A stretch of 49,750 nucleotides of DNA from Ignavibacteriota bacterium. Lineage in GTDB: Bacteria; Bacteroidota; Ignavibacteria; Tepidaquicellales; Tepidaquicellaceae. Under the pieces are notes generated by a model, which was given only the letters and a program-made list of their open reading frames with translations, ran no database searches and was not told where the DNA came from. Positions 17,852 through 46,611 of the stretch are shown in pieces. The stretch spans positions 1-49,750 of the forward strand of contig JAPLFJ010000057.1 in NCBI GenBank assembly GCA_026390735.1. The letters are read 5' to 3'. How positions within the stretch are numbered: the stretch's first letter is position 1; every line of letters starts with the position of its first letter. The position numbers were made by a program, and so were the translations under genes.

Positions 17852-18049
17852 ATGTATTCACCAAAGATTTCAGAAGAATTAATCTCACCGCTCTACCACC
17901 AAGCAAAGGCCCGAGGTATACCAATGACGCGTTTAGTAAACGAAATACTCTCTTCACATTTGTCACTGGAATTAGCACCCGACAAATGCGCTGAGAACAA
18001 ATCATTGGAGGTTTACTCTTCCGATGCCCAGAACAAGGAGGCGAGTTGA
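17852..18049 (+). CDS. Ribbon-helix-helix-like small regulator
   Basis: 65 residues with an AAGGAG ribosome-binding site ending eight bases before the ATG. Residues 4-37 (PKISEELISPLYHQAKARG then IPMTRLVNEILSSHL) fit the beta-helix-helix pattern of CopG/Arc-type DNA-binding proteins. The tail is acidic and polar. It is the first gene of the ubiquitin-like operon and its stop overlaps the next start (TTGA). The likely role is local transcription control through the palindrome upstream; this is inferred from fold and position. Confidence 0.7.
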   Translation: MYSPKISEELISPLYHQAKARGIPMTRLVNEILSSHLSLELAPDKCAENKSLEVYSSDAQNKEAS

Positions 18050-18345
18050 ACAAGTACTTTGTAAAAATTCCGTACAACTATTCAAGGTACGGAACATTAA
18101 GCTGCTTTGTTTATGCTGAAGATTCCGAAGAAGCTGAAGATATTGCGACGGACTACAACAATCGCCACTCAGAAGATTTTGACGATGGCGACAACGATGG
18201 AGATACTGAGTATGATTTTTCGGAAATGTCAGTTGAACTCGACGAAGAGGATGTTGATTCTCTAGATGGAAGCAACAATGAATCCTCTATTAACCTAGCA
18301 ATGCAACTACCTTGTAGATATATCAATGATTTAGTACTACTCTAA
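18046..18345 (+). CDS. Small acidic protein in the ubiquitin-like operon
   Basis: The start is TTG at 18046 with a strong AAGGAGG at 18036-18041, and it overlaps the preceding stop, implying translational coupling. 99 residues: an N-terminal strand-helix segment (YFVKIPYNYSRYGTLSCFVYA, EDSEEAEDIATDYNN), a very acidic middle (residues ~42-72, mostly Asp/Glu), and a polar C-terminus. No family is recognised. It could be a substrate, adaptor or inhibitor for the conjugation enzymes encoded downstream; only its conserved-looking position in the operon supports that. Confidence 0.65.
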   Translation: MNKYFVKIPYNYSRYGTLSCFVYAEDSEEAEDIATDYNNRHSEDFDDGDNDGDTEYDFSEMSVELDEEDVDSLDGSNNESSINLAMQLPCRYINDLVLL

Positions 18346-18389
18346 AATACATTAACCATAAACTAAACACTTAAAGGAAAGGCACCATC

Positions 18390-18641
18390 ATGGCGTGGAA
18401 CACTGAAGGACAAAATACGTCCGAACAAAAGACATTTATTAGTTGTAATGGAAACAAAACAGATGTAACAGGGCTATCAGGTCTTGGTTTAATTGAAAAA
18501 ATTAAATCAGTGGCCAGAGACAATAGCGTGAGTAAGTTTGATCTGTACGATGAGACAAACAGAAATTTAAGTCCATCGGATATTGAATCAGGAAACTTTA
18601 CCGGTTCAATCAATATCATCAGGTTTAACGCAGCGGCTTGA
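18390..18641 (+). CDS. Ubiquitin-like (beta-grasp) protein candidate
   Basis: 83 residues. After a ~12-residue polar tail comes a beta-grasp-like order: strands EQKTFISCNGNKTDVTGL, helix GLIEKIKSVARDN, strand KFDLYDETNRNL, and final strand SINIIRFNAAA. Size, order and the next three genes (E2-like, E1-like, JAB) make it the probable ubiquitin-like modifier. The C-terminus is Phe-Asn-Ala-Ala-Ala with no Gly-Gly, so activation would involve a terminal Ala, or processing, or a different chemistry. A strong terminator-like hairpin follows the gene, which would make it more abundant than the downstream enzymes. Fold assignment is by eye. Confidence 0.7.
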   Translation: MAWNTEGQNTSEQKTFISCNGNKTDVTGLSGLGLIEKIKSVARDNSVSKFDLYDETNRNLSPSDIESGNFTGSINIIRFNAAA

Positions 18642-18685
18642 TTTAGCTCTAATTCATAGTAAAGAACAAACTCCCTAAAACAATT

Positions 18686-18719
18686 GAGGATATCGAATTG
18701 AGCAGCGATATCCTCTTTT
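18686..18719 (+). terminator. Intra-operon terminator between Ubl and E2-like genes
   Basis: GAGGATATCG (18686-18695) pairs perfectly with CGATATCCTC (18706-18715), followed by TTTT. It is a strong rho-independent structure inside the operon. Partial read-through would yield excess Ubl relative to the enzymes. Confidence 0.85.
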
Positions 18720-18746
18720 ACATTTCAAAAACTTATCAATTAATAT

Positions 18747-19550
18747 ATGGAACACAAAGCACTAAACCCTCCTTTGAATCAATCATTTCTAAGGCGTTTA
18801 AATGAAGATAAAAAGGATGAATCAAAACTTACTCTTGCCGGTGATGCGCTTAAAAATGCTATTGCAAAGGAAGTTAAGTTCAAAGACTTGAATGACAGAC
18901 TTCAAGCATCCAGACAAGAGAAGGTATTGGTGAAAGAGGTCTATCTTGAATCAGAGCTTGATTTTGTAAGCTCGCTTCGGCAATTAAAAAGCGTGTTTAA
19001 GGAAGAACTGAAACAAGCCATCGAGAAAGTTAACGATTTATACCAAAACGAATTACTGAAGCTTCAGCAATTATATAGAAGCGAAGTAATAGGTGACAAG
19101 CTGTTAGAGATTGTGAAGACAATAAATGATGCGGGATGGTATTTGTTAATGAAAAACACCTCAGTTAATCTTTGTAAGTTTTATTCTCCTGCATATGAAG
19201 TAACAGAAGGTGTATCTGAGCACTCAGACATGGTAAAGGTATTTGAAGACCCTCCATGCTATCTTAAGGCTATCTACGTTAACATTCTACATACAAAGAT
19301 AACTTATGGAACGATTAATCTTTCAACTGAGGATGGGCAACATCCGAACTGTGAAAAAGCGAACTTTGGCGCGGCTTGTGCTGGTAGTTTACAGGACAGA
19401 CCTATTCCTTTGGATAATCCAGAACAATTACTTCAATTACTAAACGAAATTTCTAATACTTATCAACGGATTCATTTGGACAGTTCTTATTTTACGCCAT
19501 CCGGGACTGCAACAACAAGAAAGGACAATACATGGAAGACGGCTATGTAA
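18747..19550 (+). CDS. E2-like (UBC-fold) conjugating protein with N-terminal coiled coil
   Basis: 267 residues. Residues ~30-125 are helical and charged (RLQASRQEKVLVKEVYLESE, LKQAIEKVNDLYQNELLKL), probably a coiled coil. The C-terminal half carries a UBC-like signature: HPN at 199-201 followed ten residues later by Cys211 in NFGAACAGSL, comparable with the HPN...G-x-x-C-L active-site segment of E2 enzymes. The preceding strands (KAIYVNILHTKITYGTINLS) and a C-terminal helix (PEQLLQLLNEISNTYQ) fit the fold. It would accept the Ubl from the E1 encoded next, whose gene overlaps this one by 19 bp. The coiled coil is not part of a minimal E2 and may choose substrates. Confidence 0.7.
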   Translation: MEHKALNPPLNQSFLRRLNEDKKDESKLTLAGDALKNAIAKEVKFKDLNDRLQASRQEKVLVKEVYLESELDFVSSLRQLKSVFKEELKQAIEKVNDLYQNELLKLQQLYRSEVIGDKLLEIVKTINDAGWYLLMKNTSVNLCKFYSPAYEVTEGVSEHSDMVKVFEDPPCYLKAIYVNILHTKITYGTINLSTEDGQHPNCEKANFGAACAGSLQDRPIPLDNPEQLLQLLNEISNTYQRIHLDSSYFTPSGTATTRKDNTWKTAM

Positions 19551-20266
19551 TAACAAATGAAGATGAAATCAATCTAAGACAACAACATATCGTTTCTGAC
19601 TACTCTGAAAAGATTGCAATCGTAGTTGGTCTAGGAGGCATAGGAAGTTGGGTGGCTTTGGATTTAGCACTTATAGGAATTGGTACATTAATTCTATTCG
19701 ATGATGATAAAATCGAGTCTAGCAATTTGAACAGAACACTCTTTAAGTTATCTCAGGTAAGGGAATACAAAACCAAAGCTGTTAAACAGTTAATCTCTGA
19801 AAGACGTAAGAATATTCTCGTGATTACTAACGAAGAATTATTCCAAGCCGAAAGCCTGAAGAAATACAACGGTATAGATTACTTCTTCGATTGTTCGGAC
19901 ACCACGAGACTGAAAGATTCTCTCGCTGAGATTAAATCAAATATAGAATCTCCACTACCTGCACCAAAAGGTAAAACATCAATCGATGAAGAAGAAGTAG
20001 CTTTAAAATTTCCACTATACTGTAAATTAGGTTATGATGGATTTAACGCCACGATTTGTATGCACGACTTCACAACTGGTCAATGGGGCGAAGACTCAAG
20101 CTACACAGTAACTCCCAGCTTCTTTGGCACACCCCAAATTATTTCTGCCTTAGCAGTGATAGAACTACTGATGAAAAGGAAACATATATCAAGAACAGTT
20201 AACATGAACGTGAAGAAGATAATAAACCAGATAGAAGAATCACAAAATTTACTTAAACATAATTAA
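19532..20266 (+). CDS. E1-like ThiF-family adenylating enzyme
   Basis: 244 residues, about the size of a minimal ThiF/MoeB/E1 adenylation domain. Residues 28-39 (IAIVVGLGGIGS) form the nucleotide-binding Rossmann loop. FDDDKIESSNLNR (56-68) holds the acidic residues and the Asn-Arg pair needed for adenylation, and K80/K82 follow. DYFFDCSDTTRLKDSL is the next conserved segment. Cys residues in LYCKLGYDGFNATICM could carry the thioester. There is no CxxC zinc site and no separate Cys or Ub-fold domain. It overlaps the E2-like gene and lies five bases before the JAB gene. Predicted reaction: ATP-dependent activation of the Ubl C-terminus. Confidence 0.9.
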   Translation: MEDGYVITNEDEINLRQQHIVSDYSEKIAIVVGLGGIGSWVALDLALIGIGTLILFDDDKIESSNLNRTLFKLSQVREYKTKAVKQLISERRKNILVITNEELFQAESLKKYNGIDYFFDCSDTTRLKDSLAEIKSNIESPLPAPKGKTSIDEEEVALKFPLYCKLGYDGFNATICMHDFTTGQWGEDSSYTVTPSFFGTPQIISALAVIELLMKRKHISRTVNMNVKKIINQIEESQNLLKHN

Positions 20267-20271
20267 ATCTC

Positions 20272-21120
20272 ATGGACGACAAAAAAACAAATGGTCTTAC
20301 AAACCTAAATGACATCAAACCGGACTACAAGCCTGAGAAAACTAAGAAAGAAAAGCACGGGAAGTCTAAATCAGAAGTAATATATACAGAGAAAAGGGAA
20401 GCATGGGAAAGTGGGATAAAGGTTTTGGATAAGATGGATGTTATCATACCTGCGAAACTATTATTCGTTTTTGACAAGATTGCTGGTAAGGTTCACAATG
20501 ATGAGTTTTCTATCGTAACGAATATAAAAGAAAAGGACGATGCTACACTTATATTAAGTGAAGAGTATTACATCCCAAAACAAAAGGTAGCGAATACGTC
20601 TATCGAATACCTGCCAGATGAGTATTCATTTAATACAGTAATTCACCGACATCCGAATGGAATGAATAATTTCTCTTCTACTGATAGGAATTATATCAAT
20701 CAGAACTTTGAACTGTCTATCCTCTATACAAAGGAAGACGGATTTGTGAATGGTGTGTATAATTTAAAGCTCGACCATTACTTAGTCCAAATACCTGTAG
20801 AGATTTACATCGACTATGGACTTGAAGAGATTGATATAAGTAACATCGAACGGGAAACATTCCTATCAACATTCAACCGCGGAAAATCTGACAAGTGGCA
20901 TAACAAACGTGAAGGCAGTTTTGATATTTTCTCTGATTCACTCGACAAGTCGGAGTCTAAACTGTTTCCTGAAGAAACATTTGATTACTCAATGATGAGG
21001 GAAATGATGCTCGATGAGATTAATTCAGAGATACAGAACCTTGAGCACCGTGTTACAAATATAGAAGACAGTATGTTCCATGGAAGTTATTCTTTAGTAC
21101 CAGGTGAGAATCAATTTTGA
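20272..21120 (+). CDS. JAB/JAMM metalloprotease (deubiquitinase-like)
   Basis: 282 residues. The JAMM zinc site is complete: Glu78 in NDEFSIV, H125-x-H127-P in VIHRHPNG, and S135-x-x-D138 in NFSSTDRNY. The N-terminal ~40 residues are Lys-rich and probably disordered; the C-terminal ~100 (ESKLFPEETFDYSMMREMML, IQNLEHRVTNIEDSM) are helical and may bind partners. Family members cut isopeptide bonds or trim Ubl precursors, and in bacteria they are encoded with E1/E2/Ubl genes. Here it probably processes the Ubl or removes it from targets. Confidence 0.88.
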   Translation: MDDKKTNGLTNLNDIKPDYKPEKTKKEKHGKSKSEVIYTEKREAWESGIKVLDKMDVIIPAKLLFVFDKIAGKVHNDEFSIVTNIKEKDDATLILSEEYYIPKQKVANTSIEYLPDEYSFNTVIHRHPNGMNNFSSTDRNYINQNFELSILYTKEDGFVNGVYNLKLDHYLVQIPVEIYIDYGLEEIDISNIERETFLSTFNRGKSDKWHNKREGSFDIFSDSLDKSESKLFPEETFDYSMMREMMLDEINSEIQNLEHRVTNIEDSMFHGSYSLVPGENQF

Positions 21121-21166
21121 TTCTTACATATATATTATACCTCCAAAACTTAAACCACACACGATT

Positions 21167-21349
21167 ATGAAGAAACCAATATTTACCAAGGACAATGTTT
21201 TGATGATGTTCGAATTAGGTCTTGTTGTTTTAAAATCAATGAAAGACATTTATGAAACTAAAACAGAAGAAAGGATTTTAATAAAAGATGATAATACCCT
21301 CGAAGATAACAATCGAAGTAGCAAAGAAAATCCTGATACTCATAATTGA
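21167..21349 (+). CDS. Small hypothetical protein ending the ubiquitin-like operon
   Basis: 60 residues from the ATG at 21167 (MKKPIFTKDNVLMMFELG); an upstream in-frame start would overlap the JAB gene. It has one helical amphipathic stretch (VLMMFELGLVVLKSMKDIYE) and a charged C-terminus. No family is recognised. It lies 46 bp after the JAB gene and before a terminator, so it is probably co-transcribed. Confidence 0.5.
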   Translation: MKKPIFTKDNVLMMFELGLVVLKSMKDIYETKTEERILIKDDNTLEDNNRSSKENPDTHN

Positions 21350-21424: not shown

Positions 21425-21578
21425 TTATTTTGAGTAAAATAAACGCTCATAATAAAGATATGTTGATTTTAAGCAATTTTCGAACGGCTCCCCGGCTCCC
21501 CATAGTAATATTTCAAAACGGAGTATTTGATACAGTCCGTTTAAACTAACCACTTTATAAATTTAACAGTTAACAAAA

Positions 21579-21656
21579 ATGAAGCTATTTACGAAAGCAA
21601 TCGAGGCCAAACCAAACACCCCAGGGGGAGACGTTGAACCGTTTGACGTAGGGTAG
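21579..21656 (+). pseudogene. Short remnant resembling the start of a DUF2958-type gene
   Basis: A 25-codon frame starting MKLFTKAIEAKPN and ending VEPFDVG. The first nine residues resemble the N-terminus of DUF2958 proteins found on mobile elements, but the rest is missing. A hairpin (AAACGGA / TCCGTTT, about 21516-21542) precedes it. I see nothing else in 21350-21684. Confidence 0.35.
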
Positions 21657-21684
21657 GAAACTTTTTTAAGTCAGAGTTAGAATA

Positions 21685-23175
21685 TTACGTTGGTGTGTTG
21701 CCAAATTTTATTTCTATTTCGTTGTCGTTTACTATGTTATCAATGGTTTGGTTTAAGATTTCTTTTAGCTGTTTGGCTGTTTTATCCAACTCGTAAATTC
21801 CTGCTTGTTGGTTATATTCGTTGTCTTTGTCTAAAAAATTGTTTAATGTAAATGTGTCGGTTTTGTATTCAATTTCCACATTGTGGTAAAGTTTAGCAAT
21901 TTCGTTTTTTTTAGTTATGTCAAACTTTGGAAATGGTATAATTTCCCAATATTTCTGTGCCAAACTACCACCATTTCCACCAACTGCATAAAGGTCAATT
22001 AAACCTTTGCTTCGCAAATAATCTAAACAACATTTAACAAAAATTGCTTTGTTTACGTCATGCTCTTTTTGTTGAATTGTAATTCCGTGAATGTTTGTAA
22101 TTACCCTGTCTTGCTCTTCAATTATTACAATTGAACGACCTTTTTCAAATCCCTCAGCACCAAAAATCAAATCGCCTTTTTTTAAAGTCTTCAAATTGTT
22201 TTGATTCCCTAAATATTCTATTTTATCAACAGTACCATATTTAGATAAAAAATTTGGCATCATTAAAGTATAAAAACAAGGGTATTTCTTTATTGAGTAA
22301 ACACTTTTGCCAATATTTGAAACTTGTAAATTTTGTCCTCTTGAAAGGTCAAAACCTAAATCAGTAATTGTTAGATAACCATTTTTGTAATTTTTAATTT
22401 TAAAAACTATATTTTTAAAATGTTTTCTATAAAGATTCGTATCTAACCTTCCAACTTCACTAATTTCGCTAATCCTTGGTAGTTCAAAAGTAAAATCAAT
22501 GGGTTTTTGATTGTCTAATAATTCAGCTTCAATAGATTTCAAAATTGCTTCATGCCGTTTTTTTATTATCGCGATTTTATTCAAATATGCTCTAACTAAT
22601 ATGGTTACATAAGGTATTATTTTATCATCTTTAGGTATTGGAATTAAGATATGATTCATAGCTGCCTTATCCAATCTAGGATACATACCTCTATTTTGGA
22701 ATCCTAATATTTGCTCAATAAAGTAATTAGTTCTTAAAACGGCAAATAAATATTCTTTTGTAATTTTGCTATTCACTTCTCTAATTAATAATATCGCAGG
22801 TGAGCAACAATGATTATCATTATTATCATGGACAAATCCAACACCTCCTCTATAAGTTCTTACAGTAGAAATAAGAATATCATTTTGTTTTAATTCCTTT
22901 GGGTTTTCAGAGGGTAAGTCTAAACCATAAAAAGTTTTCGAGTTAACACTACCATCAGAAACATTTATATCTCCTATTTCAGAATAGTGATATTTCGATT
23001 TTATATTTATTTTCAGTTTTTTTATACTTACAGAACACAAGCTTGACAGTGTTTCAAAATTTATTCTTTTATTGGGTAAAAATCTTGAATATTTAGAAGG
23101 AGCAAGACAATAATCGTTTTCAATGCACTCTTGCAGTGTAATTTGATTGGGGACTTTTATGTATTGATATTCCAT
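21685..23175 (-). CDS. Type I restriction-modification specificity-like subunit (HsdS family)
   Basis: 496 residues, slightly longer than a usual HsdS. Two target-recognition-like halves are visible. The first (residues ~50-200) has QNDILISTVRTYRGGVGFV and the end FQNRGMYPRLDKAAMNHILIPIP; the second (~240-440) has LKKGDLIFGAEGFEKGRSIV and GGNGGSLAQKYWEIIPFP. Each ends in the typical I-P-I/F-P helix entry, followed by helical conserved regions. The start codon lies two bases after the methylase stop, so the two are translationally linked. It would select the DNA sequence modified by the methylase. Confidence 0.85.
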   Translation of the reverse strand: MEYQYIKVPNQITLQECIENDYCLAPSKYSRFLPNKRINFETLSSLCSVSIKKLKINIKSKYHYSEIGDINVSDGSVNSKTFYGLDLPSENPKELKQNDILISTVRTYRGGVGFVHDNNDNHCCSPAILLIREVNSKITKEYLFAVLRTNYFIEQILGFQNRGMYPRLDKAAMNHILIPIPKDDKIIPYVTILVRAYLNKIAIIKKRHEAILKSIEAELLDNQKPIDFTFELPRISEISEVGRLDTNLYRKHFKNIVFKIKNYKNGYLTITDLGFDLSRGQNLQVSNIGKSVYSIKKYPCFYTLMMPNFLSKYGTVDKIEYLGNQNNLKTLKKGDLIFGAEGFEKGRSIVIIEEQDRVITNIHGITIQQKEHDVNKAIFVKCCLDYLRSKGLIDLYAVGGNGGSLAQKYWEIIPFPKFDITKKNEIAKLYHNVEIEYKTDTFTLNNFLDKDNEYNQQAGIYELDKTAKQLKEILNQTIDNIVNDNEIEIKFGNTPT

Positions 23176-23177
23176 GA

Positions 23178-24776
23178 TTATTTTGCTTTTACAAATATTT
23201 CCTGTAATGTTTTTTCTTGCCTATTGCACCATTGTTTAAAATCAATTATGGTTTCTGTAAATTCTTCATCAAGTAAGGCACGACCATCTTTATCAATTTC
23301 TATTTCGAAGTTTGAATAATTTATTTTATAATTAGGTGAAAAGAATTTTACTTTTTTACTTGTTTTAACATCATAACCAATTTTCTGAATATCTTTTGAA
23401 AAGATTTCATAATTCTGTGCTTTTACCTGTATTAACTCTTTAACAGTTGGTTTATAGGCAACAATGATTGTAGTAGTAACACCGGTTTCAGCAAATACAT
23501 TGGCTGGTAAATCAAAAATAGCAACAATACGCATTTTATCCATTAGCCACTTTCGTGCTATTTTATGTGTGTCAATACTTGCAATTGAATTAGAAAGAAC
23601 AATGCCAATTCTTCCATTTTCTTTTAAAATTCGGTAAGCATTTTCAAGAAATACGACACCTAAATCTATTTTAGAAGGGGATTTATCTTTTCTTTTTTTC
23701 GGTTTTTCATTTTCTTCTAAATCTTCATTTTTCCCATACAAATGCCAAAGTTCATAACATTTAATCAATTCAAGGTCTTTATCGTCTTTGGGTACAAATG
23801 CCCTATCTTCTCCAAAAGGTGGATTTGTAAGAACAACATCAAACTTTTTTAATTTTATTTCATCAGGACGATTATCCCAATTTCCTTTTTGGTTCATAGA
23901 TGGTACAAGTTCTAAAACGTCACCTTTGTGATCAAATTTTGAGAGCAAAGAACCATATCCCGCTTTTGATTTAATTTTGGCATTTCCATCTCCATTCAAC
24001 AACATATTTAATGTTGCAAGCATTACCATTGTTTCATCTATATCCATTCCAAAGATATTGTTATCGTCTAATTTACTGTTTGAGTTAACATATGATACAG
24101 AAAGAAAATCAGCAATTCCAACAGTAGGGTCAACAACTGATTCACCATTTCTTGGGTTTACTATACTTACTAAAAAGTCTATTAATGGTAAAGGTGTGAC
24201 AAATTGGGCATTTTTATCTTTTGAAAAAGGTGGAGCAAATTTGTAAAATACTAATTGGTAAAGATCTGTTTTGTGTGAACGAACAAAAGAATAATCTTGA
24301 AATTGATATACAACTTCGATTAAAACTTTAATATGATTTTCATTTTTAGGATTTAAGGGATTATCTTTTAAAATTCTAAAATATTCACCAGTCGCTTCAA
24401 TTCGTAATTCTTCTATTCTTTTAATGAACCCTTGTAAACCTTTATCTGAAAGATATTTATAATTCTTCTCTTCTTCTGTTATATAAAAATCTAGAAATCT
24501 TTTTGCAATTTTTTCATTTCTTTTTTCGTCATATATTTTTAGTGAAAGAATTTGAATAAGTATTTTAAAACCTTCTTGATCTACTTTTCCAACTTTGTCC
24601 ATTGTACGTAAAATACTACTCATTGCATCATTTACCTGCGTTGAATGAATACCCGAAATAATATCTAATTCCTTAATTCCTCTTTTTGAACGGTCAACGG
24701 TTTTGGCTTCTGTCCATTCTAAAATATCATCAAAACTTGGAATATTTATGTAAGGGTCGGGCAAGTGTAAAGCCAA
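23178..24776 (-). CDS. N6-adenine DNA methylase (HsdM-like), 3' part of a split gene
   Basis: 532 residues from a TTG at 24776 (MALHLPDPYINIPSF). The catalytic domain has motif I VVDPTVGIADFLS in place of the usual DPxCGTGxFL, and motif IV LTNPPFGED (NPPF). The N-terminal helical region (residues ~1-170) matches the HsdM type. The frame remains open upstream through SKSKEL and TKGED to a 91-bp palindromic element. Removal of the element fuses it to the preceding frame (24886-25437), giving a ~722-residue protein with an HsdR_N-like N-terminal domain. The methylase domain may still be made alone from the TTG, which would leave modification active. Confidence 0.87.
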   Translation of the reverse strand: MALHLPDPYINIPSFDDILEWTEAKTVDRSKRGIKELDIISGIHSTQVNDAMSSILRTMDKVGKVDQEGFKILIQILSLKIYDEKRNEKIAKRFLDFYITEEEKNYKYLSDKGLQGFIKRIEELRIEATGEYFRILKDNPLNPKNENHIKVLIEVVYQFQDYSFVRSHKTDLYQLVFYKFAPPFSKDKNAQFVTPLPLIDFLVSIVNPRNGESVVDPTVGIADFLSVSYVNSNSKLDDNNIFGMDIDETMVMLATLNMLLNGDGNAKIKSKAGYGSLLSKFDHKGDVLELVPSMNQKGNWDNRPDEIKLKKFDVVLTNPPFGEDRAFVPKDDKDLELIKCYELWHLYGKNEDLEENEKPKKRKDKSPSKIDLGVVFLENAYRILKENGRIGIVLSNSIASIDTHKIARKWLMDKMRIVAIFDLPANVFAETGVTTTIIVAYKPTVKELIQVKAQNYEIFSKDIQKIGYDVKTSKKVKFFSPNYKINYSNFEIEIDKDGRALLDEEFTETIIDFKQWCNRQEKTLQEIFVKAK

Positions 24777-27488: not shown

Positions 27489-29954
27489 CTAATTTGAGCT
27501 TACTTTTAAATATCTACTAATTTCAAATTTATAAAAATCATCGATTGAATTTACAAATACATCAAATTCCGAGTTTCCTCTTAAATTATTATATTCATCG
27601 AAATCAATATTGTTTAACTGTCCATCCCTTTCTAACCTTGAAATCAAACTCAAGCTTAAACCATATTTTGTTAGACTAATTTTATATTCATCTGTAGTCC
27701 CATAAATGTATAAATTATACTCTGACTTCCCAATAATATTGTAATCAAACATCATCACAATAAATTTATTTAATTTAAAACTTATAAAATCTTCTTCCAT
27801 TTTAAGTTTAACGATTGCCAAATTTACTAATTCTTCATCATTTTTAGTTGATAAATCAACATAAACTCTATTAGATGAATTTGAATAAGAACCAGATTCG
27901 TAAGTCTCCTCTCCATATGCAATCCCGAAATAAAATTTGCTGTCTTCACTATCAGCTTTATCTTTAAAATATCTAAATTGGGAGCTTATATTTTCGTTAA
28001 GAGATTTCTTCTGGTTATTGAGTATGAAATACTCATAATAATTTCTTGCTTTTTCATTATTTAAACGTTTAATCTCAAAATCAGAAACCAGATTTGTTCC
28101 AAATACAAATAAAAATTCAATTCTATCCATCATTGACATATCGTCCCAATCAACTAATTCGTTATTTCTAACAGCATTTAATCTTTTTAAAAACTCATTT
28201 AAAAATTCTTCTACATTATAATAATAGTCAATAATTCCAGATTCAATAAGATATTGCTTTGTTTTGTCCTCGTCTGATTCATAAACTGAATTTAGAAAAA
28301 TTTCATTTTCTTTTATATATTCTGTTTTACTAATATATTCTTCCTTTTTATCTTTAGCTATATTAAGTTTATCAATATTAAAGGCATCAAGTATGGGGTT
28401 TTCAACGATGTCCTCAAAATTACGACTTCTAAGAAGAGTGATTTTATTCTTCATATTACTATCAACTCTATAATGTTCCTTATTGTTGATAAAGTGTATT
28501 CTAGGTAATAATTTTCGTAAGTCGACGGCTTTATTATCGAAAATATTATTTAAACGATTTACTCTTCCAATTAAATTCATTAATTCTTTCCCATACAGTG
28601 AACGTACATTAAATATGAACAAAGTATCGATTGGTAAATTCATTCCCTCCAGGATTACTGAATTTGCTATTACAAACTTTAACTCAGGTAATGTTTTGTA
28701 CTTATATTCTAGGTATTCTTTTATTAAATCAGGTAGTTTTCCGTGCAGATAAACGAGTCCATATTTTAAATATTTAATTCCATAAAAATCTTTATGAACT
28801 TCTTTTTTTAGAATATTAACAATCTCTAAAACATTGTCTGTAATATCAACCTCGGGAAGTTGTTCACATAATTCTTTTGCTAATTGTTCAATTTTTATTG
28901 GTCTGTAATTATAAATAAAATTCTTATTGCCAGAATTATCTTTTAAATAAGTATACTTATCTATTCCATTTCTAATTTTATAAAATTCATTAACAAATCT
29001 ATTATATTTGAAAACTTCTTCATTTAATCTGTGTTCAAATATTTCTGGTTCTTTAATATTAAAATTAACTACATGAGATGCTATTTCTTGCTCTCCAAAT
29101 ATTTTTAAATTAGCAACATTCTCAATTAATGGGGAAAGATAGACAATTTTTTGTTGAGGATTTCTTAATCTATTTTTAGCTATCAATCTTGACAATAGTA
29201 TATTCCTGCCATCATTCTCTTTTAACATATTATGCGCCTCATCTATAATCATTACATCAAAATATAAATCATTTCTTCTTAACAATCTAAGTGAACGTTC
29301 TTGAGTAAAAATAGCCACAACCGTATTTTCGTTAGTATACATTTCATCATGTATAATGATTTTTCTTCTAATATCTGCTTCTCTAATCATTTTATATGTT
29401 TGCATTAAGAGAGATTTAGTTGGAACTACAATAACAATCTTTAATTTTTCTTCTAATCCTCTAATATACTCAATCATTAATGAACTTTTCCCAAAGGAAG
29501 TTGGAGCTATATAACTTTTCTCTTTTGTTATATCACTTAAAAATCTTTTACTTTGAAGATATTGCTCTTGTGTTTCAAAGTAATCATTGTAATTTTTAAA
29601 TCCTTCTAATTTTATATCAATGAAACAGTTACTTATAATATTACTTTCGGATAAATCATTATTTAATATAGCTTTTGTAATAGGATAAAAACCAAAATTC
29701 GTAGAAAAATCATAAAGGGGTAAATAATCTTTAAAGTTTAATGAGTATTTCAATATTATATAATAAGATAAATCGGCAAAACTTGTATATCTATTATCTT
29801 TTTGATAATGTTTCAGGATTAATATAGCACATGCAAGTATATATGTTTTTTCTTTAAAACTTAAATCCTCATCTAAAGTTAATTTTCTAAAGACTTCTTT
29901 AAATAAAATATCTTTATTTAAGGTTGTTAACAGCTTTATATCTTCTTTTATCAT
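27489..29954 (-). CDS. hamB: SF2 DEAD/DEAH-type helicase, HamB-like (Hachiman defence)
   Basis: 821 residues. Walker A APTSFGKSS (150-158), motif Ia VVPTKSLLMQTY (~177-188), DEAH box MIIDEAHNML (235-244), KIVYLSP as motif III, and in the C-terminal RecA domain FVIANSVILEGMNLPI and LIGRVNRL as motifs V-VI. Length and the adjacent nuclease gene (five-base gap) fit HamB of the Hachiman HamAB system, in which the helicase scans DNA and holds the nuclease in check. The C-terminal ~300 residues are not assigned. The gene is very AT-rich. The Hachiman assignment rests on gene pairing and on the partner's fold. Confidence 0.75.
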   Translation of the reverse strand: MIKEDIKLLTTLNKDILFKEVFRKLTLDEDLSFKEKTYILACAILILKHYQKDNRYTSFADLSYYIILKYSLNFKDYLPLYDFSTNFGFYPITKAILNNDLSESNIISNCFIDIKLEGFKNYNDYFETQEQYLQSKRFLSDITKEKSYIAPTSFGKSSLMIEYIRGLEEKLKIVIVVPTKSLLMQTYKMIREADIRRKIIIHDEMYTNENTVVAIFTQERSLRLLRRNDLYFDVMIIDEAHNMLKENDGRNILLSRLIAKNRLRNPQQKIVYLSPLIENVANLKIFGEQEIASHVVNFNIKEPEIFEHRLNEEVFKYNRFVNEFYKIRNGIDKYTYLKDNSGNKNFIYNYRPIKIEQLAKELCEQLPEVDITDNVLEIVNILKKEVHKDFYGIKYLKYGLVYLHGKLPDLIKEYLEYKYKTLPELKFVIANSVILEGMNLPIDTLFIFNVRSLYGKELMNLIGRVNRLNNIFDNKAVDLRKLLPRIHFINNKEHYRVDSNMKNKITLLRSRNFEDIVENPILDAFNIDKLNIAKDKKEEYISKTEYIKENEIFLNSVYESDEDKTKQYLIESGIIDYYYNVEEFLNEFLKRLNAVRNNELVDWDDMSMMDRIEFLFVFGTNLVSDFEIKRLNNEKARNYYEYFILNNQKKSLNENISSQFRYFKDKADSEDSKFYFGIAYGEETYESGSYSNSSNRVYVDLSTKNDEELVNLAIVKLKMEEDFISFKLNKFIVMMFDYNIIGKSEYNLYIYGTTDEYKISLTKYGLSLSLISRLERDGQLNNIDFDEYNNLRGNSEFDVFVNSIDDFYKFEISRYLKVSSN

Positions 29955-29959
29955 AACAT

Positions 29960-30733
29960 TTATTTGTTAAGGTAATCCCAAAATAAACTGAGAGATTTCT
30001 TGTTGACACATATAACATTTATCTTGTTAAAATTGAACTTTAAAATTAATTTATTTATTTCGATTTCTAATTCAGTGGTATTAATGCTTTCCCAATTACC
30101 CTCTAAGAATATTGTTGATCCAGGAATTATATTAAAATTATCGATATCGTGGGTTACATCATTTGTAAATTCTTCAGAGAGTATTTTAAGGTTGTTACGA
30201 ATATTAGAACTACTATCTACATCTATATGGCTTGCATGATTATATGCATTTTGCCAAGGATTATTTTTTACATCACCAGAGATTTTATCTTTTAAATCAG
30301 TATAGGCTTCTTTAATCTTGTTTTTGTGAGATATTTTATCAGTCGAGATACTACCTGACTTACTTTCAAATATCCACTCTTCATTTAAATATGAATAATA
30401 TCCATCAAAGCCTTTTTTTATTGATTCTTCTTCAAGGTTCAGAAATAAAAATTCTTGTTTAAAACCAATTTCATTTAAATAGAGGTGAGTAAAAAATTCC
30501 GCGATTGCACCAATTTCTAAATTTGTACCAATTTTTGAGGTTAAAAACTTTATTAATCGCTTTTTAATTGTATAAAGATTTATATCAGTATTTCCTTCAC
30601 AAATCTTTGCAATGCTTTCATCTATATATGTTTCCAATTTTGTGTCAATCTCTTCAATATTAATTAAGTGAAGATAATTCCCTGAACTAAGTTCTTTGTA
30701 TTCGGCATTGAAAACATTACTTGTAATAGACAT
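29960..30733 (-). CDS. hamA: PD-(D/E)xK nuclease, HamA/DUF1837-like (Hachiman defence)
   Basis: 257 residues. The nuclease core is GAIAEFFTHLYLNEIG (E79) followed by GFDGYYSY (D110) and WIFESKSG (E123-x-K125), the D...ExK arrangement of PD-(D/E)xK enzymes and close in form to the DUF1837/HamA family. In Hachiman, HamA cuts DNA when released by HamB after infection. It is the first gene of the two-gene unit. Another DExK nuclease-helicase pair type (AbpAB-like) is the main alternative. Confidence 0.68.
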   Translation of the reverse strand: MSITSNVFNAEYKELSSGNYLHLINIEEIDTKLETYIDESIAKICEGNTDINLYTIKKRLIKFLTSKIGTNLEIGAIAEFFTHLYLNEIGFKQEFLFLNLEEESIKKGFDGYYSYLNEEWIFESKSGSISTDKISHKNKIKEAYTDLKDKISGDVKNNPWQNAYNHASHIDVDSSSNIRNNLKILSEEFTNDVTHDIDNFNIIPGSTIFLEGNWESINTTELEIEINKLILKFNFNKINVICVNKKSLSLFWDYLNK

Positions 30734-38009: not shown

Positions 38010-39461
38010 TCATGTGATTATAGGCTGTTTTCGCAGTCTTAGCCTGTAAAACTTCCTCATAACCTTAAAAAGCTCATCTTTATGCACTTTTTCAACTATG
38101 AACGAATCATGGATACAAAGTGCCAGGACCGGAGTCTTTTTAGTGGCAAAATACTTTAACACATCATTCGCTATTTTTGAGTCAAGATTTTGTAATTCCA
38201 TACCTTTCCTTTTGTAGAACAAATGAGATATGTGTTTGTTGTGGTTTTCAAATGCTTTTATCAAAGGTTTTAAACTTTCGTTCGTCATATCAACAAAATC
38301 ATCTTCAAGGTCATTTTTCTTTATATGTTTTCTTATAGCATGTAACGCTTTCTTTTCGCTATCGATATTAATACAAATCAAAGAAACAATTTTTAACAGG
38401 TTTCTCCATTTATCCTCTAAGCCGACTCTAACCATATATGGATCTTCAGGGGCATACTTACCAGACATATGATAAAGCATTCTCGGGTGTAATGCTTTGT
38501 AATCTAACTCTACAGTTTCGTTTCCGTTAATTGCCAGGTAAGGTCTTAATACTTTACTGATTTCACTTTCGACTCCCCAGTAGAACCTGCCCCCGTGTTC
38601 GTAATCAACATTGAATATTCTAACGAGAAATGTTTTACGAAGATTTACATTGTAAAGGCCGTTTGAATCAGGCCTTACTAAGTTTAAGTTTTCAAGTGCA
38701 TATTCCTGAATTTTCTTTTGGTATTTCTTGAATAATATCTCAGGTAAGTTTTTCAGACTTATATTAGAACTTTTTCTTACCTCATTATACTTGTTTAAGT
38801 CCTGTCTCATGGAATTCGTTTCAGGTGTATCGTCGTATTCTATTAAACATTTCTTTTTGGTGCGGACTACTTTTGATTCGGCTTCAATACCGGCTTCTAT
38901 TTCATTTTCAACAGTGAGCTTCTCTTCTTTTGGTATTTTCACACCTTTAGTTTTTACAATAGCCCCTTTGAGTTTGATTTTCTTCTTTTCCTTTACAACC
39001 TCATTAACCTTACCTCTAAGTAATATTACCTCTTTCGTCCGAAATATTACATTTTCCCGTGAATCAGTTAGTTCAATAAGGGTAAGTAGTTCTTTTGTAG
39101 GACTATAATGAGTAGCCTCGGTTTCGTTTTTATGTCCTTTGAGATGTTCAATTACGTACCTTGGTTTAAGCTTATCAATAAGGTCTTTAGTTAAGTCCTT
39201 ACTTATATTATCAAGTTTATATCGTTGAGGTATTCCGCTATAAAAGTTTTCACCTAATGGGATAGCTGTTTTGAATCCACAAATGTTGTTAGAATATAAA
39301 TTCTCTAAGATAGAAATTAATATCCTTCTTCTTTTGTCAATATGTTTCTGTTCAACCTTAAGTTCGATTATTAGAGCATCAGACAATTCAATCATTCTTG
39401 CATTATCTGAGGACATTCCGAAATCAATTAACTTAGAGCCTTCTCTTTTTCCTCTGTACAT
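38010..39461 (-). CDS. Polymerase-palm-like protein of the replication module
   Basis: 483 residues. The C-terminal half has RFYWGVESEISKVLRPYLAI, then ETVELDYKALHPRMLYHMSG, an acidic motif resembling the family A polymerase motif A (DYSxxExR), and near the end PVLALCIHDSFIVEKVHKDEL, resembling the His-Asp motif C. The middle is Lys/Glu-rich and low-complexity (residues ~150-200). Similar proteins of unknown function occur on plasmids and integrated elements. With the initiator-like genes next to it, a DNA-synthesis role in element replication is plausible but inferred. An alternative is another palm-fold or nuclease protein. Confidence 0.55.
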   Translation of the reverse strand: MYRGKREGSKLIDFGMSSDNARMIELSDALIIELKVEQKHIDKRRRILISILENLYSNNICGFKTAIPLGENFYSGIPQRYKLDNISKDLTKDLIDKLKPRYVIEHLKGHKNETEATHYSPTKELLTLIELTDSRENVIFRTKEVILLRGKVNEVVKEKKKIKLKGAIVKTKGVKIPKEEKLTVENEIEAGIEAESKVVRTKKKCLIEYDDTPETNSMRQDLNKYNEVRKSSNISLKNLPEILFKKYQKKIQEYALENLNLVRPDSNGLYNVNLRKTFLVRIFNVDYEHGGRFYWGVESEISKVLRPYLAINGNETVELDYKALHPRMLYHMSGKYAPEDPYMVRVGLEDKWRNLLKIVSLICINIDSEKKALHAIRKHIKKNDLEDDFVDMTNESLKPLIKAFENHNKHISHLFYKRKGMELQNLDSKIANDVLKYFATKKTPVLALCIHDSFIVEKVHKDELFKVMRKFYRLRLRKQPIIT

Positions 39462-39975: not shown

Positions 39976-40998
39976 TCAAGCTGCTATTATTGTATTATAA
40001 TACGATTCATTTTCAGGCTTATACTTCCCAAATATGTTAGGGTCGTAATATTTTGATGTTTTACCTTTTACTAATAAATCAGTACTTATAGTAGATTCTT
40101 CGGAGGTAGGTGAAACACCATCCCCGGTACACCAACCACCCACCGTGATTTTCTTCAATTTGTCATTGTAATAAATAACACAAATCATTTTGCCATCAAG
40201 AATTTTATTATAACCGATGAAACTTCTCGGGACCGAATCTCCAGAGTCATTTACATTCGTATCAATTATTTCTTTTGGTGATAGTTCGTTAGTAGTCATC
40301 AAAGAATCATTCTCTTCCTTCGTAAACCAGTGTTTCTCAGGGTCGTATATTTTCTTGTTCAGAGTAAATATCTTCCCAGGTTCAACTTTAATGTAACCTG
40401 TATAACTCAAAACACCAAGCAGAACCTTTAATACTTTATGGTCTATACCTAACGTTCTTTCAAGGGATGTCTGTGTTAAACTGGATTCCAAAAGTGGCTC
40501 TTTCTTGAGCAAGCAGTGTCTATTACTTACTATCAAATAGTAATAAACTATCAAACACTTAATTATCAATATCTTGTATTTACCAATCGGAAGAATCTCC
40601 CTTTTGATTAATGACAGCATATCATCAAAGGCATTTTGATAGAAAAGGATAAATTGTGTGTACTTGGTGGCTGCTTCAATATCAACTTTTTGGAACTTAG
40701 TTAAATATATACTTTCATCTACTAATTGATACTTTCTTTGCTTCTTTATTAATAGTCCTGCTGTCTCTAATTCATTTAACGCTTCATAAATGGTCGCAGG
40801 AGTAGTAACATAATAATCTGCCAAAGTCTTTACGTCCACTGTAAATGTCTTATGTGGTGCTTTTTCAAGATAGTATTTGTATTTAAATTTTAATGCCAAG
40901 TAAACCCAAGGTGTATACGCTGAGGTAAACACTTCAAATTCATCGAATAAGAATTCCGGTTTAATTTTAATGTAGTATGTGTCTTTTATCTGTTTCAT
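39976..40998 (-). CDS. Winged-helix replication-initiator-like protein
   Basis: 340 residues. The N-terminal ~110 residues form a winged-helix domain (WVYLALKFKYKYYL ... VDVKTLADYYVTTPATIYEALNELETAGLLIKK), the layout of plasmid initiators and DnaD-like proteins. A second winged-helix-like segment is at ~165-215 (SLTQTSLERTLGIDHKVLKVLLGVLSYTGYI). The C-terminal ~120 residues are less structured. The candidate iterons lie right after its stop codon, so it is the natural candidate for the protein that binds them. A transcription regulator is the alternative. Confidence 0.65.
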   Translation of the reverse strand: MKQIKDTYYIKIKPEFLFDEFEVFTSAYTPWVYLALKFKYKYYLEKAPHKTFTVDVKTLADYYVTTPATIYEALNELETAGLLIKKQRKYQLVDESIYLTKFQKVDIEAATKYTQFILFYQNAFDDMLSLIKREILPIGKYKILIIKCLIVYYYLIVSNRHCLLKKEPLLESSLTQTSLERTLGIDHKVLKVLLGVLSYTGYIKVEPGKIFTLNKKIYDPEKHWFTKEENDSLMTTNELSPKEIIDTNVNDSGDSVPRSFIGYNKILDGKMICVIYYNDKLKKITVGGWCTGDGVSPTSEESTISTDLLVKGKTSKYYDPNIFGKYKPENESYYNTIIAA

Positions 40999-43419: not shown

Positions 43420-43971
43420 ATGGCAAAAGCAACAACAAACGCTAACAGTAATGTTAGCACACAGGATGAATTCATGAAGTTCGTGGATTCGCTGCCTGCC
43501 TCAGGCTCTAAGAAAGGCAGGACAGTAGAAAAGGCGACGTTAGGTGATCTACTTTCGTTGGACATCTCAAAACTTCGAGATTTGGAAGAGGCAATTTACC
43601 TTTCCGGCACTAACATCGAAATCAACCTTAAAGGCGATATCGGTGTTTTTTCGGCAGCTTTACTAAGCAGAAGATTTAAAAGAAAAGGTTTTGCAGGTCG
43701 CAACATCAATCTCGCAATTCCTGCTTCTGTTGGTGAGCAAGAAAGAGAAAAACTCACAGACCGTATTGGTCTTTGTGTGAAATCTGAATTTGCTGATGAA
43801 GTAAAATCTCTCGTTAAAAAAGGTGCTTCTATCACTATGGCCGAAGCGAAAAAATATGGTTTAATCGACCAAGAGGTTGACCTTTTAAAGCGCAGAGGCT
43901 CTAAGCCTACAACAGCAATTGCAGCCTCAGACGACAAGACTGTCGATGAGAACTCAACAGCTACAGCCTAG
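43420..43971 (+). CDS. Hypothetical protein with a ClpP/crotonase-like C-terminal motif
   Basis: 183 residues. A polar N-terminus (~45 residues) leads to TNIEINLKGDIGVFSAALLSRRF, a hydrophobic strand-turn-helix region, and later VKKGASITMAEAKKYGLIDQEV, which resembles the A-x-x-x-GLID segment of ClpP-type and crotonase-fold proteins. No catalytic Ser-His-Asp set is evident, so similarity may be only local. The tail is Thr/Ala-rich. It lies directly upstream of the GHKL ATPase and probably shares its operon. Confidence 0.5.
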   Translation: MAKATTNANSNVSTQDEFMKFVDSLPASGSKKGRTVEKATLGDLLSLDISKLRDLEEAIYLSGTNIEINLKGDIGVFSAALLSRRFKRKGFAGRNINLAIPASVGEQEREKLTDRIGLCVKSEFADEVKSLVKKGASITMAEAKKYGLIDQEVDLLKRRGSKPTTAIAASDDKTVDENSTATA

Positions 43972-44020
43972 CGATGGAAAGGAGGAAGGGGGAAGGATTG
44001 TTTTATCTTCCCCCCCTTTT

Positions 44021-45727
44021 ATGAAAATTACTTGTAAAATATCTCCACGCTTGATCATGAACATTTCATCATCTTACACTGACCCGAATCGTTCCTTCAT
44101 GGAATTTGTAGATAATTCAATTGATGCAGCTGAAAAAGGAAATATACTTATGCACACACTCAATGGCGAAGCAATCGAATATGCACACTCAGTAGATATT
44201 AAAATTAGTATTACAGGAAAAACATTCAGGGATGGTAAGGTCAAAATAAGTGATAATTGTTCAGGAATAAAAGAACTGAGAAAAGTAGTTGAAAGAATTG
44301 GAAACTCAGAAAAGAAGTCTCAGTCCTGGACTAATGGACAGTTTGGTTATGGAATCTATTCGTTTATGGCTGTTTGCCAGACAATGGAAATTAGAACTAA
44401 GCATTCCGATAATTTATACTCTGAATATATTAAAATTAGTAAGGATGACTTTATGATTGATGATTTGAACGATTTGAAATTTGATATAACTCAAGAATCC
44501 CCTCATACAACGGGTACAGGAACTGAAGTAATATTGTCTGGTTTCTCAAAGGATAGTTGGAATGATATCGACACTGATTTACTTAAAAGTGAAATTGAAG
44601 ATCACTTTGAATTATTACTAAGAGATCCATCGATTAAGATAAGAATCAGGAATTCCAATGGCACTTCTTCATTATGTGTCCCATACGATTACAATAAACA
44701 CCAAGGTGAGATTTTTGAGAAGAGTATAACCATTCCTATAAAGGGAAATAAGTATGATGATTTGTTCAAGAAGAATGAAATAAAGATTTTTCTTAAGATT
44801 ACGCCTGGAGTTTCTGTTGAAAGACCACCGGTATTAATATCGAAAAACCGAAGGGTACTGGAATTACGCCAGATTAAATTGCTCAAAACATTTAACAAAC
44901 TGAAGATTTATAGCCGTCCTATTGTGACAGGTTATGTAGATACAAAGGATTTACTTACTCCGACACTGGCAAGAAATGACTTTAAGAACGATAAAAATTT
45001 TAAGTTAGTAAGGAAAGCGATACTTGATGCAGAAGATGAAATACTCGCGAAGTTTAAAGAGGTAATCGCATCATCTACAACAAGAGATTTTTCAGAATTG
45101 GAATCGGATTTTAATTCTAATCTGGAAAGTCTGATTGATTTAACATCTGATGAGAAGATGAATATAAAACCTGGAGATGTAGTAACAATCTCAGAATCTG
45201 GTGAAAAGATACTTAGTGTACTTGTGCGGGATGTAGACGGCTCAAATGAATCGGGATTTCCTACAGGTTCAAACTCGTCAGGTGGTAAAAAAAGCAAAAA
45301 GAAAAATACTCCCTCAGAGTTAGATGACATAATTAGCATGGATCATAGCCGGGAGTTTGTAATACCACCCAGAAGTAATGAAAGAAGCCTAATAATGAAA
45401 ATTGATGATACCTCGGACCCTATAAAGGATAACGATGGAAAAGAAAAGCGGTCAGAATTATTCGGTAACACTGTGAATATATACAAGAAACATCCTGATT
45501 TTATGAAAAGAATATCTAAGAACACTCTTGAAATCGAAATCATTAATTCTGAATTGATAACATACCTGGCTAGTGAGATGCTCATTCATTATACCAACTA
45601 CAACTTTGAACAAAACAAGAAAGACAAACAATCAGACAGTAAAGAAGTACTAATGTTTTTCACTGATTGGCTTTACAGGCTTGAAGATTCGCTTAAGAAG
45701 TTAATAGGCAAACCTTTAAGTAAATAA
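44021..45727 (+). CDS. GHKL-type ATPase (Hsp90/MutL/MORC-like)
   Basis: 568 residues from the ATG at 44021; an earlier in-frame ATG at 43919 would overlap the previous gene and lacks conserved sequence. All Bergerat-fold motifs are visible: N box FMEFVDNSIDAAE (27-39), G1 ISDNCSGI (76-83), G2 NGQFGYGIYSFMA (105-117) and G3 TGTGTEVIL. A transducer-like domain follows with LTPTLARNDFKND. Residues ~380-470 are a disordered Ser/Lys linker, and the C-terminal ~100 residues are helical. Such ATPases act as nucleotide-controlled clamps on DNA or proteins. It is the only clearly identifiable protein in this operon, whose role may be defence or element maintenance. Confidence 0.85.
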   Translation: MKITCKISPRLIMNISSSYTDPNRSFMEFVDNSIDAAEKGNILMHTLNGEAIEYAHSVDIKISITGKTFRDGKVKISDNCSGIKELRKVVERIGNSEKKSQSWTNGQFGYGIYSFMAVCQTMEIRTKHSDNLYSEYIKISKDDFMIDDLNDLKFDITQESPHTTGTGTEVILSGFSKDSWNDIDTDLLKSEIEDHFELLLRDPSIKIRIRNSNGTSSLCVPYDYNKHQGEIFEKSITIPIKGNKYDDLFKKNEIKIFLKITPGVSVERPPVLISKNRRVLELRQIKLLKTFNKLKIYSRPIVTGYVDTKDLLTPTLARNDFKNDKNFKLVRKAILDAEDEILAKFKEVIASSTTRDFSELESDFNSNLESLIDLTSDEKMNIKPGDVVTISESGEKILSVLVRDVDGSNESGFPTGSNSSGGKKSKKKNTPSELDDIISMDHSREFVIPPRSNERSLIMKIDDTSDPIKDNDGKEKRSELFGNTVNIYKKHPDFMKRISKNTLEIEIINSELITYLASEMLIHYTNYNFEQNKKDKQSDSKEVLMFFTDWLYRLEDSLKKLIGKPLSK

Positions 45728-45759
45728 CAATATTTAAAATAATTTAAAATTATCTGAAA

Positions 45760-45864
45760 ATGATACTAATTGAAATAAGAAACAAAGGTGAACCTGAAGT
45801 ATCTCTATCGAGAGTTCACAAAAGAGCTTTACAAGCTCGAAGAAATACTGAAAGACCAAAGTAA
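45760..45864 (+). CDS. Small basic protein (34 aa)
   Basis: A short frame 32 bp after the ATPase gene, MILIEIRNKGEPEV...ending RNTERPK. It is basic, with one beta-like and one helical segment. Position in the operon is the only support. Confidence 0.35.
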   Translation: MILIEIRNKGEPEVSLSRVHKRALQARRNTERPK

Positions 45865-45909
45865 ATAATAATAATGTCATAAAATAATTTAAATGAAAGG
45901 ATTCATACA

Positions 45910-46611
45910 ATGACAAATAAGAAAGTAAAGACAGTAAAGAAAGAAAAGACAGTTAAGAACGTTAAGAAAGAAAAGAAAGAGGGAGTTACAAAAGAAACAC
46001 TTAAATATGCTGTGATTCCCATAAAAGATGAGTTTAAAGAATCTCACATGGTAGAAATAATTGGAGAATATAAGGCAGATCATCGCACCTTTATGATATT
46101 GTTGCTCGAAGATTTAAAGAATTCGAAAAACTTTGAGTTGATTAGAATGCTTCATGATTTTTTAGATGTTAACGATATTAATGTTGGATGTATAATTAGC
46201 GGGGAGAATCATTTCTCAGCGATTCTTATGTTATCATCAGTACGCATAAAATACAGATCTGCTACATACGATACACAATTTGTATACGACAAGGACGATT
46301 ACATTAAAAAGAACTTCGAATCAGATGATACTTATTTCACAGGAAAACTTAATAGACACTTTGGATCAGGTAATCTTTTTAATGCTGATGCTATTTTGGC
46401 AGCCTATAAGGAAGGTGATGACATTAGTGCATTTAAAGCCTACGTGTTGGGCATAATAGATAATATAATAACATTTAGTAAAGAAGATTTCGAAGACGAG
46501 ACTTATAGAATTGATATCATTAAAGATGTAATATCTGTAACCAGATTGTACATAGAAAGAATGAAAAACATTAAAGATTATTTATTCGGTTTAATTCAGA
46601 AACTGTATTAA
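45910..46611 (+). CDS. Hypothetical protein (233 aa) with Lys-rich N-terminus
   Basis: The first ~30 residues are mostly Lys/Val/Glu (MTNKKVKTVKKEKTVKNVKK), perhaps a nucleic-acid-binding or disordered tail. The remainder is an alpha/beta domain (YAVIPIKDEFKESHMVEIIGEY, INVGCIISGENHFSAILMLSSV, helical C-terminus). No family is recognised. It lies in the GHKL operon and a terminator follows. Confidence 0.6.
   Translation: MTNKKVKTVKKEKTVKNVKKEKKEGVTKETLKYAVIPIKDEFKESHMVEIIGEYKADHRTFMILLLEDLKNSKNFELIRMLHDFLDVNDINVGCIISGENHFSAILMLSSVRIKYRSATYDTQFVYDKDDYIKKNFESDDTYFTGKLNRHFGSGNLFNADAILAAYKEGDDISAFKAYVLGIIDNIITFSKEDFEDETYRIDIIKDVISVTRLYIERMKNIKDYLFGLIQKLY

Follow-up and report, generated by a model that had tools for sequence, protein, structure and literature searches.

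The known bacterial operons for ubiquitin-like (Ubl) proteins have mostly been discussed as host immunity. Such operons are known since Iyer et al. 2006 (PMC1779556), and several of other types than the one described here are antiviral according to passages of PMC10097602 and of PMC12135933, the latter citing Hor et al. In the Bil system, BilA has two Ubl domains, BilB carries CEHH and BilD joins an inactive and an active adenylation domain (IAD and AAD) with a Cys domain (PMC11354881). Here we describe an operon at positions 17852-21349 of a stretch of 49,750 nucleotides from an Ignavibacteriota bacterium (contig JAPLFJ010000057.1), the whole of which is called the window. An initial annotation of this DNA had proposed a compact Ubl-E2-E1-JAB conjugation operon with a ribbon-helix-helix (RHH) regulator, an acidic protein and a terminator, and this gene set and order were upheld. 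We consider, with a probability of about one half, that the cassette is a complete reversible Ubl-conjugation module of mobile DNA, with kin in tailed phages, that acts on replication and recombination proteins.

Gene content, folds, active-site residues, gene order, Ubl tail, hairpin and phage kinship were computed; coordinates are those of the window, open reading frame (ORF) calls P0001-P0007 are used and all operon features lie on the + strand. The cassette contains what generally defines a bacterial Ubl-conjugation operon, namely a Ubl, an E2 of ubiquitin-conjugating (UBC) fold with its Cys, a ThiF-type E1 and a JAMM peptidase. The gaps at its junctions are, in order, -4, +44, +105, -19, +5 and -17 nt, in agreement with the tight packing and overlaps initially reported. 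The unusual traits pointed out at that time also hold (a Ubl without Gly-Gly, a coiled-coil E2, extra small genes and an intra-operon terminator), to which we add a third small gene (P0007) 3' of JAB and the remnant of a DUF2958 gene. About 16 loci from metagenome-assembled genomes (MAGs) present the order [RHH]-acidic-Ubl-E2-E1-JAB-[small] wherever the contig is complete, the apparent absence of Ubl in L027 being an assembly gap within the Ubl gene, and in the MAG loci no E1 or JAB homologue was found without these neighbours. As gene order is identical in every locus with complete sequence, the grouping exceeds chance. A Pfam search gave no meaningful family match for P0002, P0003, P0004 or P0007, and PADLOC and NCBIfam gave nothing that fits the window proteins except generic E1 models far under cut-off.

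The Ubl (P0003, 83 aa, 18390-18641) ends in R78-F-N-A-A-A83. AlphaFold2 (AF2) predicts for it, from 12 sequences, the beta-grasp fold that had been proposed, with beta-beta-alpha-beta-alpha-beta order and a mean predicted local distance difference test (pLDDT) of 75. Its structural neighbours in Foldseek and VIA-align are nearly all of Ub/UBL type, including SUMO, UFM1, RBD and the bacterial Ubl 8tyx, the matches being individually modest (best Z ~7). We found the tail R-[FY]-N-[VA]-A-A in 12/12 operonic Ubls, followed by 0, 1 or 4 residues, with R78, N80, A82 and A83 invariant in their alignment. Solo Ubl homologues of relatives (n=3), encoded in stretches without E1, E2 or JAB genes, end instead in IENLQ, IENLL and IENIL. 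The tail is thus lost where the enzymes are missing, and this sequence comparison gives good evidence that this tail forms the functional end of the Ubl. In CBASS (cyclic oligonucleotide-based antiphage signaling systems) a single C-terminal Gly or Ala is enough for conjugation, and Ala is proven for the CBASS cGAS (PMC10097602). The solo Ubls are chromosomal (L130:5769-6017, L131:3202-3450 and L132:2025-2273) and two of them lie near PRC-barrel-like genes.

The E2-like protein (P0004, 267 aa, 18747-19550) comprises a coiled coil (70-128), a UBC domain (~115-258), the HPN motif (199-201) and Cys211. Its AF2 model consists of a 59-residue helix (70-128) followed by a UBC-like domain, with residues 120-258 at pLDDT ~90, so that the UBC fold around Cys211 and the N-terminal coiled coil of the initial annotation are both predicted. 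HPN 199-201 and C211 are invariant in 15 homologues. When residues 112-258 were compared by VIA-align, E2/UEV/RWD-type chains were the commonest domain-wide matches (Z 4.4-5.2, including Citrobacter BubB); an actin-capping protein scored a slightly higher Z than the E2s, and for this reason the fold call leans on the invariant HPN and C211. The E1 (P0005, 244 aa, 19532-20266) is a minimal ThiF protein (Pfam ThiF 5.2e-22) with GLGGIGS and NLNR intact and the adenylation domain only, as first read. The ThiF signatures are invariant in its alignment (n=15), which has no Cys among the invariant residues, and the FDC-D cysteine is replaced by Ala in three loci (L031, L032 and L034); in phage E1s the sole invariant Cys falls in this same adenylation motif. 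The JAB/JAMM isopeptidase (P0006, 282 aa, 20272-21120) is by itself a borderline match to Pfam Prok-JAB (0.012). The complete JAMM set that had been recognized (E78, H125-x-H127-P, S135-x2-D138) is intact, and E78, H125, H127, S135 and D138 do not vary among 16 homologues.

Unexpectedly, uncultivated phages were found to hold the closest kin of the E1, JAB and Ubl. A scan of IMG/VR with a JAB profile gave 13 loci, all with E1 upstream except L057, whose contig starts at JAB, and most of them encode a diverged Ubl that ends in IRPYDVAG. With this phage Ubl the scan gave 33 loci, 32 of them with a full Ubl match (contigs L086-L117, e.g. L086:5908-10847). Clamp loader, sliding clamp and Ubl follow one another in 32/32 contigs, with E2, E1 and JAB next where the sequence continues, and 34-820 nt separate the end of the clamp gene from the start of Ubl. 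Grouped by clamp identity, these contigs give 27 groups at 95%, 22 at 70% and 13 at 50%, and their clamp loader is of T4 type (phrog_168, 4.5e-62 and 2.7e-58). When MAG and phage families were aligned by hhalign, where E-values are those of single comparisons, E1 reached 99.9% over 176 columns (6e-36), JAB 97.5% (7.6e-12) and Ubl 87% (4e-6). Judging from these alignments, the cassette shares descent with phage genes in three of its four proteins. The JABs and E1s nearest to those of the window are in two large contigs, L050 (102 kb) and L051 (322 kb), in which SbcD/SbcC adjoin; both have a 584-605-aa protein (with an HPN...C motif in L050) and a gene ending in CNKAA or HNKAA plus ~14 residues. 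A branch of the E1 tree with support 99/88 divides the MAG, L050/L051 and T4-type sequences, which stand together, from the PRTRC and crAss-like ones, without indicating a direction of transfer. A search of IMG/VR for a Ubl and an E2 of the exact MAG type found neither, nor did the window JAB have a match among PLSDB plasmids. Invariant Lys residues of the phage clamp were also considered as modification sites and rejected, since K14 and K143, present in 26/27, are not diagnostic.

The source genome (a 4.02 Mb MAG) has three cassettes, on C25 (the window), C7 (JAB 91% identical) and C30 (53%). JAB was found in 11/59 relatives searched, all of the same taxonomic order, and E1 at 1e-30 in 395 sampled genomes of the phylum only in the source genome and in one of the same order; the named carriers of the cassette are MAGs assigned to Ignavibacteria, Bacteroidetes, 'Sphingobacteriia' and Chlorobi. 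When neighbours of the MAG loci were clustered, DUF2958 (cluster c5) appeared in 7 loci, a Mu-Gam-like protein in 6, a ~180-aa protein that by eye resembles an OB-fold in 6, and DUF932 in 3 (L031, L032 and L034); in many MAG loci such genes follow downstream of the cassette. A defence gene adjoins the cassette in 8/10 MAG loci tested, with systems that vary: type I restriction-modification (RM; L024, L029, L033 and L037), type III RM, type IIG, Druantia DruE and PD-Lambda-4. The window cassette has beside it an N6-methylase gene paired with one for a specificity-type subunit, and Hachiman HamB. Because the defence systems vary per locus while the cassette and Gam/DUF932/DUF2958 persist, the gene content would suggest an island or mobile element whose core is conserved and whose defence genes are an exchangeable cargo.

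The small genes and the hairpin complete the operon. P0001 (65 aa, 17852-18049) is an RHH/CopG-like protein (Pfam CopG_antitoxin 0.0012, under the curated cut-off) that heads the operon in 6 loci and is missing from many others and from the phages. The acidic protein P0002 (99 aa, TTG start, 18046-18345; isoelectric point 4.05, net charge -21) has conserved termini, MNKYxVxIPYxY at the N-terminus and PxYFLxDLxxL at the C-terminus, and its Pfam matches were at chance level only. It was found in 14 loci and is duplicated in L027 and L029; this conservation with the cassette supports a genuine role, perhaps as substrate, adaptor or inhibitor. P0007 (21104-21349) is a small helical protein, 81 aa as annotated, whose homologues start MKKP.. 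and are kept 3' of JAB in 6 loci. Ubl and E2 are 105 nt apart, and in this gap a terminator- or attenuator-like hairpin (18685-18720) has a perfect 10 bp stem (GAGGATATCG/CGATATCCTC), a loop of 10 and then TTTT, a quality that a script matched in 0/100 shuffles. It escaped the standard terminator scan, which allows loops of at most 8. This gap holds an inverted repeat of 9-14 bp in 13/13 loci, with differing sequences and mostly T-rich DNA after it; in ~4 loci (L024, L025, L033 and L037) the repeat is individually weak, its length being often equalled by shuffles. The intra-operon terminator reported initially is recovered as a stem with TTTT and as a repeat at the same place in all 13 loci.

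Family knowledge suggests how the steps of conjugation, with direct charging of the E2, may proceed, and the target class is read from gene context only. The hairpin may act as an attenuator 3' of the Ubl gene that damps E2-E1-JAB and so raises Ubl in excess over its enzymes. JAB would trim residues past the N-x-A-A tail, a step that the window Ubl would not need, and E1 would adenylate the C-terminal Ala. The E1, having no conserved catalytic Cys, would pass the Ubl straight to Cys211 of the E2, which, oligomerized or docked through its coiled coil, would join it to target proteins, from which JAB would take it off again. The likeliest targets would be the element's own replication and recombination machinery, that is, the sliding clamp in the phage branch, and SbcCD, Gam or ssDNA-binding partners elsewhere. 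The RHH protein is probably the autoregulator of the operon, and for the acidic protein the role of a dedicated adaptor or substrate is proposed.

We prefer this reading, in which the cassette is part of the core of mobile elements and phages, over an immune operon because the phage kin adjoin clamp, loader or SbcCD, and because the genes linked to the cassette in its core are Gam, DUF932 and DUF2958. Several observations weigh on the other side. In the window itself the cassette is directly flanked by defence genes, and no clamp loader or sliding clamp was recognized among the window ORFs. Foldseek matched the E2 best to UBE2S, weakly (E 0.27), and hhalign detected no homology between the E2s of the window family and of the T4-type phages, so that the likeness of MAG and phage cassettes is partly positional or architectural only. 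The sliding clamp rests on one PHROG match (phrog_223, 4e-7, L052) and is assigned elsewhere by homology, three other phage clamps having no PHROG match. Also, the IMG/VR contigs are metagenome assemblies, and tblastn with JAB (window and phage) or phage Ubl gave no relative in 50,697 GenBank phage records.

Host anti-phage defence as in Bil, in which infection would be blocked by joining Ubl to proteins of the invading phage, or else to an effector of the host, seems to us somewhat unlikely. It would fit the defence genes beside 8/10 of the MAG cassettes and the RM-like pair and HamB of the window, up to three copies per genome with patchy spread (11/59 relatives), and the antiviral action of other Ubl operons, and it draws on the tendency of islands to gather defence genes and on the use of such chemistry by Bil and CBASS. 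However, the neighbouring systems change here while the cassette and Gam/DUF932/DUF2958 stay. Moreover the homologous phage cassettes adjoin the phages' own replisome, the operon is without an effector gene and PADLOC gives generic E1 similarity only. The initial annotation's suggestion that this may be a variant conjugation defence system agrees with the defence genes beside the cassette, but these vary per locus. Counter-defence or host takeover, with Ubl put on host proteins such as restriction enzymes or RecBCD-type nucleases as DNA enters, is an unlikely explanation. The linkage to Gam-like end-protection proteins and to the mobile-element genes DUF932/DUF2958, the presence of the cassette in phages and an acidic partner that could mimic DNA are consistent with it, but in phages the cassette is always tied to sliding clamp and loader and so to the replisome, not to entry functions.

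Addiction-like stabilization of the element, where the RHH protein as an antitoxin-like regulator and the acidic protein would be paired with a Ubl system that acts as the toxic part, is very improbable. Iyer et al. 2006 made such a suggestion for Ubl operons (PMC1779556) and a CopG-antitoxin-like RHH gene comes first in 6 loci, but RHH is missing in many loci and in the phages and no toxin was recognized. A sulfur-carrier pathway of ThiS/MoaD type, with the E2 fold and JAB as accessories, would account for a minimal ThiF-type E1 without conserved catalytic Cys, yet it is the least probable of all: the Ubl is without Gly-Gly, HPN...C and JAMM are intact and biosynthetic neighbours are absent. 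Outside the three cassettes, no E1/ThiF homologue of the source genome passes the Pfam cut-off, which makes a thiamine or molybdenum-cofactor role unlikely, and with E2 and JAB intact the sulfur-carrier role was dropped as the main explanation.

Returning to the conjugation module of mobile DNA, the phage branch argues that its ancestral job was not host defence. Modification of PCNA by ubiquitin and SUMO would be the eukaryotic parallel. We would tentatively propose, as a possibility short of even odds, that tailed phages and bacterial mobile elements modify the sliding clamp or its partners in a PCNA-like manner, with Ala/Gly tails and an E1 that would charge the E2 without a catalytic Cys of its own. 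As the nearest kin lie beside a replication clamp in every contig found, Ubl modification may serve the DNA replication of phages and mobile elements; if this is true, Ubl control of replication clamps arose repeatedly or predates eukaryotes. The idea can be tested directly, since the cassette has four genes, the tail two residues, and the candidate substrate is encoded by a single gene next to them. Our literature search, made among papers outside subscription, found no description of clamp-linked phage Ubl cassettes.

Other features of the window may be mentioned. The DUF2958 remnant (MKLFTKAIEAKPNTPGGDVEPFDVG*) is at 21578-21657 (+ strand) and is truncated; the gene is intact in 7 related loci, including the sister copy C7 (L023:3835-4155, Pfam DUF2958 3.2e-16). 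The N6-methylase and specificity-type subunit (21685-24776) are convergent with the operon, with no HsdR recognized alongside, and a 183-aa gene upstream might be a nuclease. A Hachiman-like pair occupies 27489-30733, with the HamB helicase (PADLOC 1.3e-36) and a 257-aa gene where HamA would be expected. A 483-aa protein (38010-39461) matches phrog_4756, a family of unknown function (2e-51), near a DnaD-like/replication-initiation protein (39976-40998), and the two possibly form the replication module of the element. A 602-aa GHKL ATPase (HATPase_c_3) protein clustered with uncharacterized small proteins (43420-46611) lies near the tyrosine integrase (48390-49481).

Compared with the named types tested (PRTRC, Bil, Bub and CBASS), the lineage departs from their hallmarks, and membership in each was rejected on this ground; PADLOC E1-E2 models gave no matches across the phylum, the controls likewise being without match. 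Like PRTRC (type 6d of Iyer 2006), it keeps Ubl, E2-like protein and minimal ThiF as separate genes on mobile elements, and the PRTRC niche beside single-stranded DNA-binding protein (SSB) or DUF932 genes is found here as DUF932 in three loci and a suspected SSB (cluster c7). In six PRTRC loci of the phylum (Bacteroidota), PRTRC_C, E2-like and ThiF genes stand together, L080 having also DUF932 and an SSB-like gene. Nevertheless, NCBIfam PRTRC models miss our Ubl, E2 and JAB and give ThiF 17.6 bits against a cut-off of 144.75, while by hhalign the Ubl and E2 profiles have a probability <1% and ThiF aligns over the Rossmann part only (6.8e-8). The Ubl tail is NxAA instead of GTKG. The HPN His, absent in 6d E2 (PMC1779556), is invariant in the window family.

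The cassette resembles BilABCD in its four-gene Ubl, E2, E1 and JAB operon and in the fold match of the Ubl to 8tyx, and differs in an 83-aa single-domain Ubl, an HPN-x9-C E2 and a 244-aa E1 with a single AAD and no invariant Cys. Bub (Citrobacter BubCD/BubB 9ea4, 9eae) is approached by the profile match of the E1 to BubCD (3e-11) and by the fold similarity of E2 and BubB (Z 4.6), but BubCD E1-JAB is one 458-aa PDB chain, whereas here the genes are separate and the E2 has a coiled coil. Type II CBASS Cap2/Cap3 shares the E1/E2 and JAB chemistry and the single C-terminal Gly/Ala (PMC10097602); in contrast, our operon is without CD-NTase, its E1 and E2 are unfused and its modifier is a beta-grasp Ubl. 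In crAss-like phages (Steigviridae cr128_1 and cr85_1; L119:1611-5663, L120:942-4657) a ThiF E1 and JAB occur with two further genes, one possibly Ubl-like in its N-terminal part, between DNA primase and uracil-DNA glycosylase; these are annotated as hypothetical, metalloprotease or ThiF, and their E1 is on a branch distant from the window E1. The clamp-linked phage cassettes of IMG/VR differ in a Ubl ending in DVAG instead of NVAA, in an E2 with HYHxxxxDCWG that is unrelated by sequence, in their place 3' of clamp loader and clamp, and in that no acidic or RHH gene was found there, but their Ubl, E1 and JAB are homologues, likewise arranged as Ubl-E2-E1-JAB.

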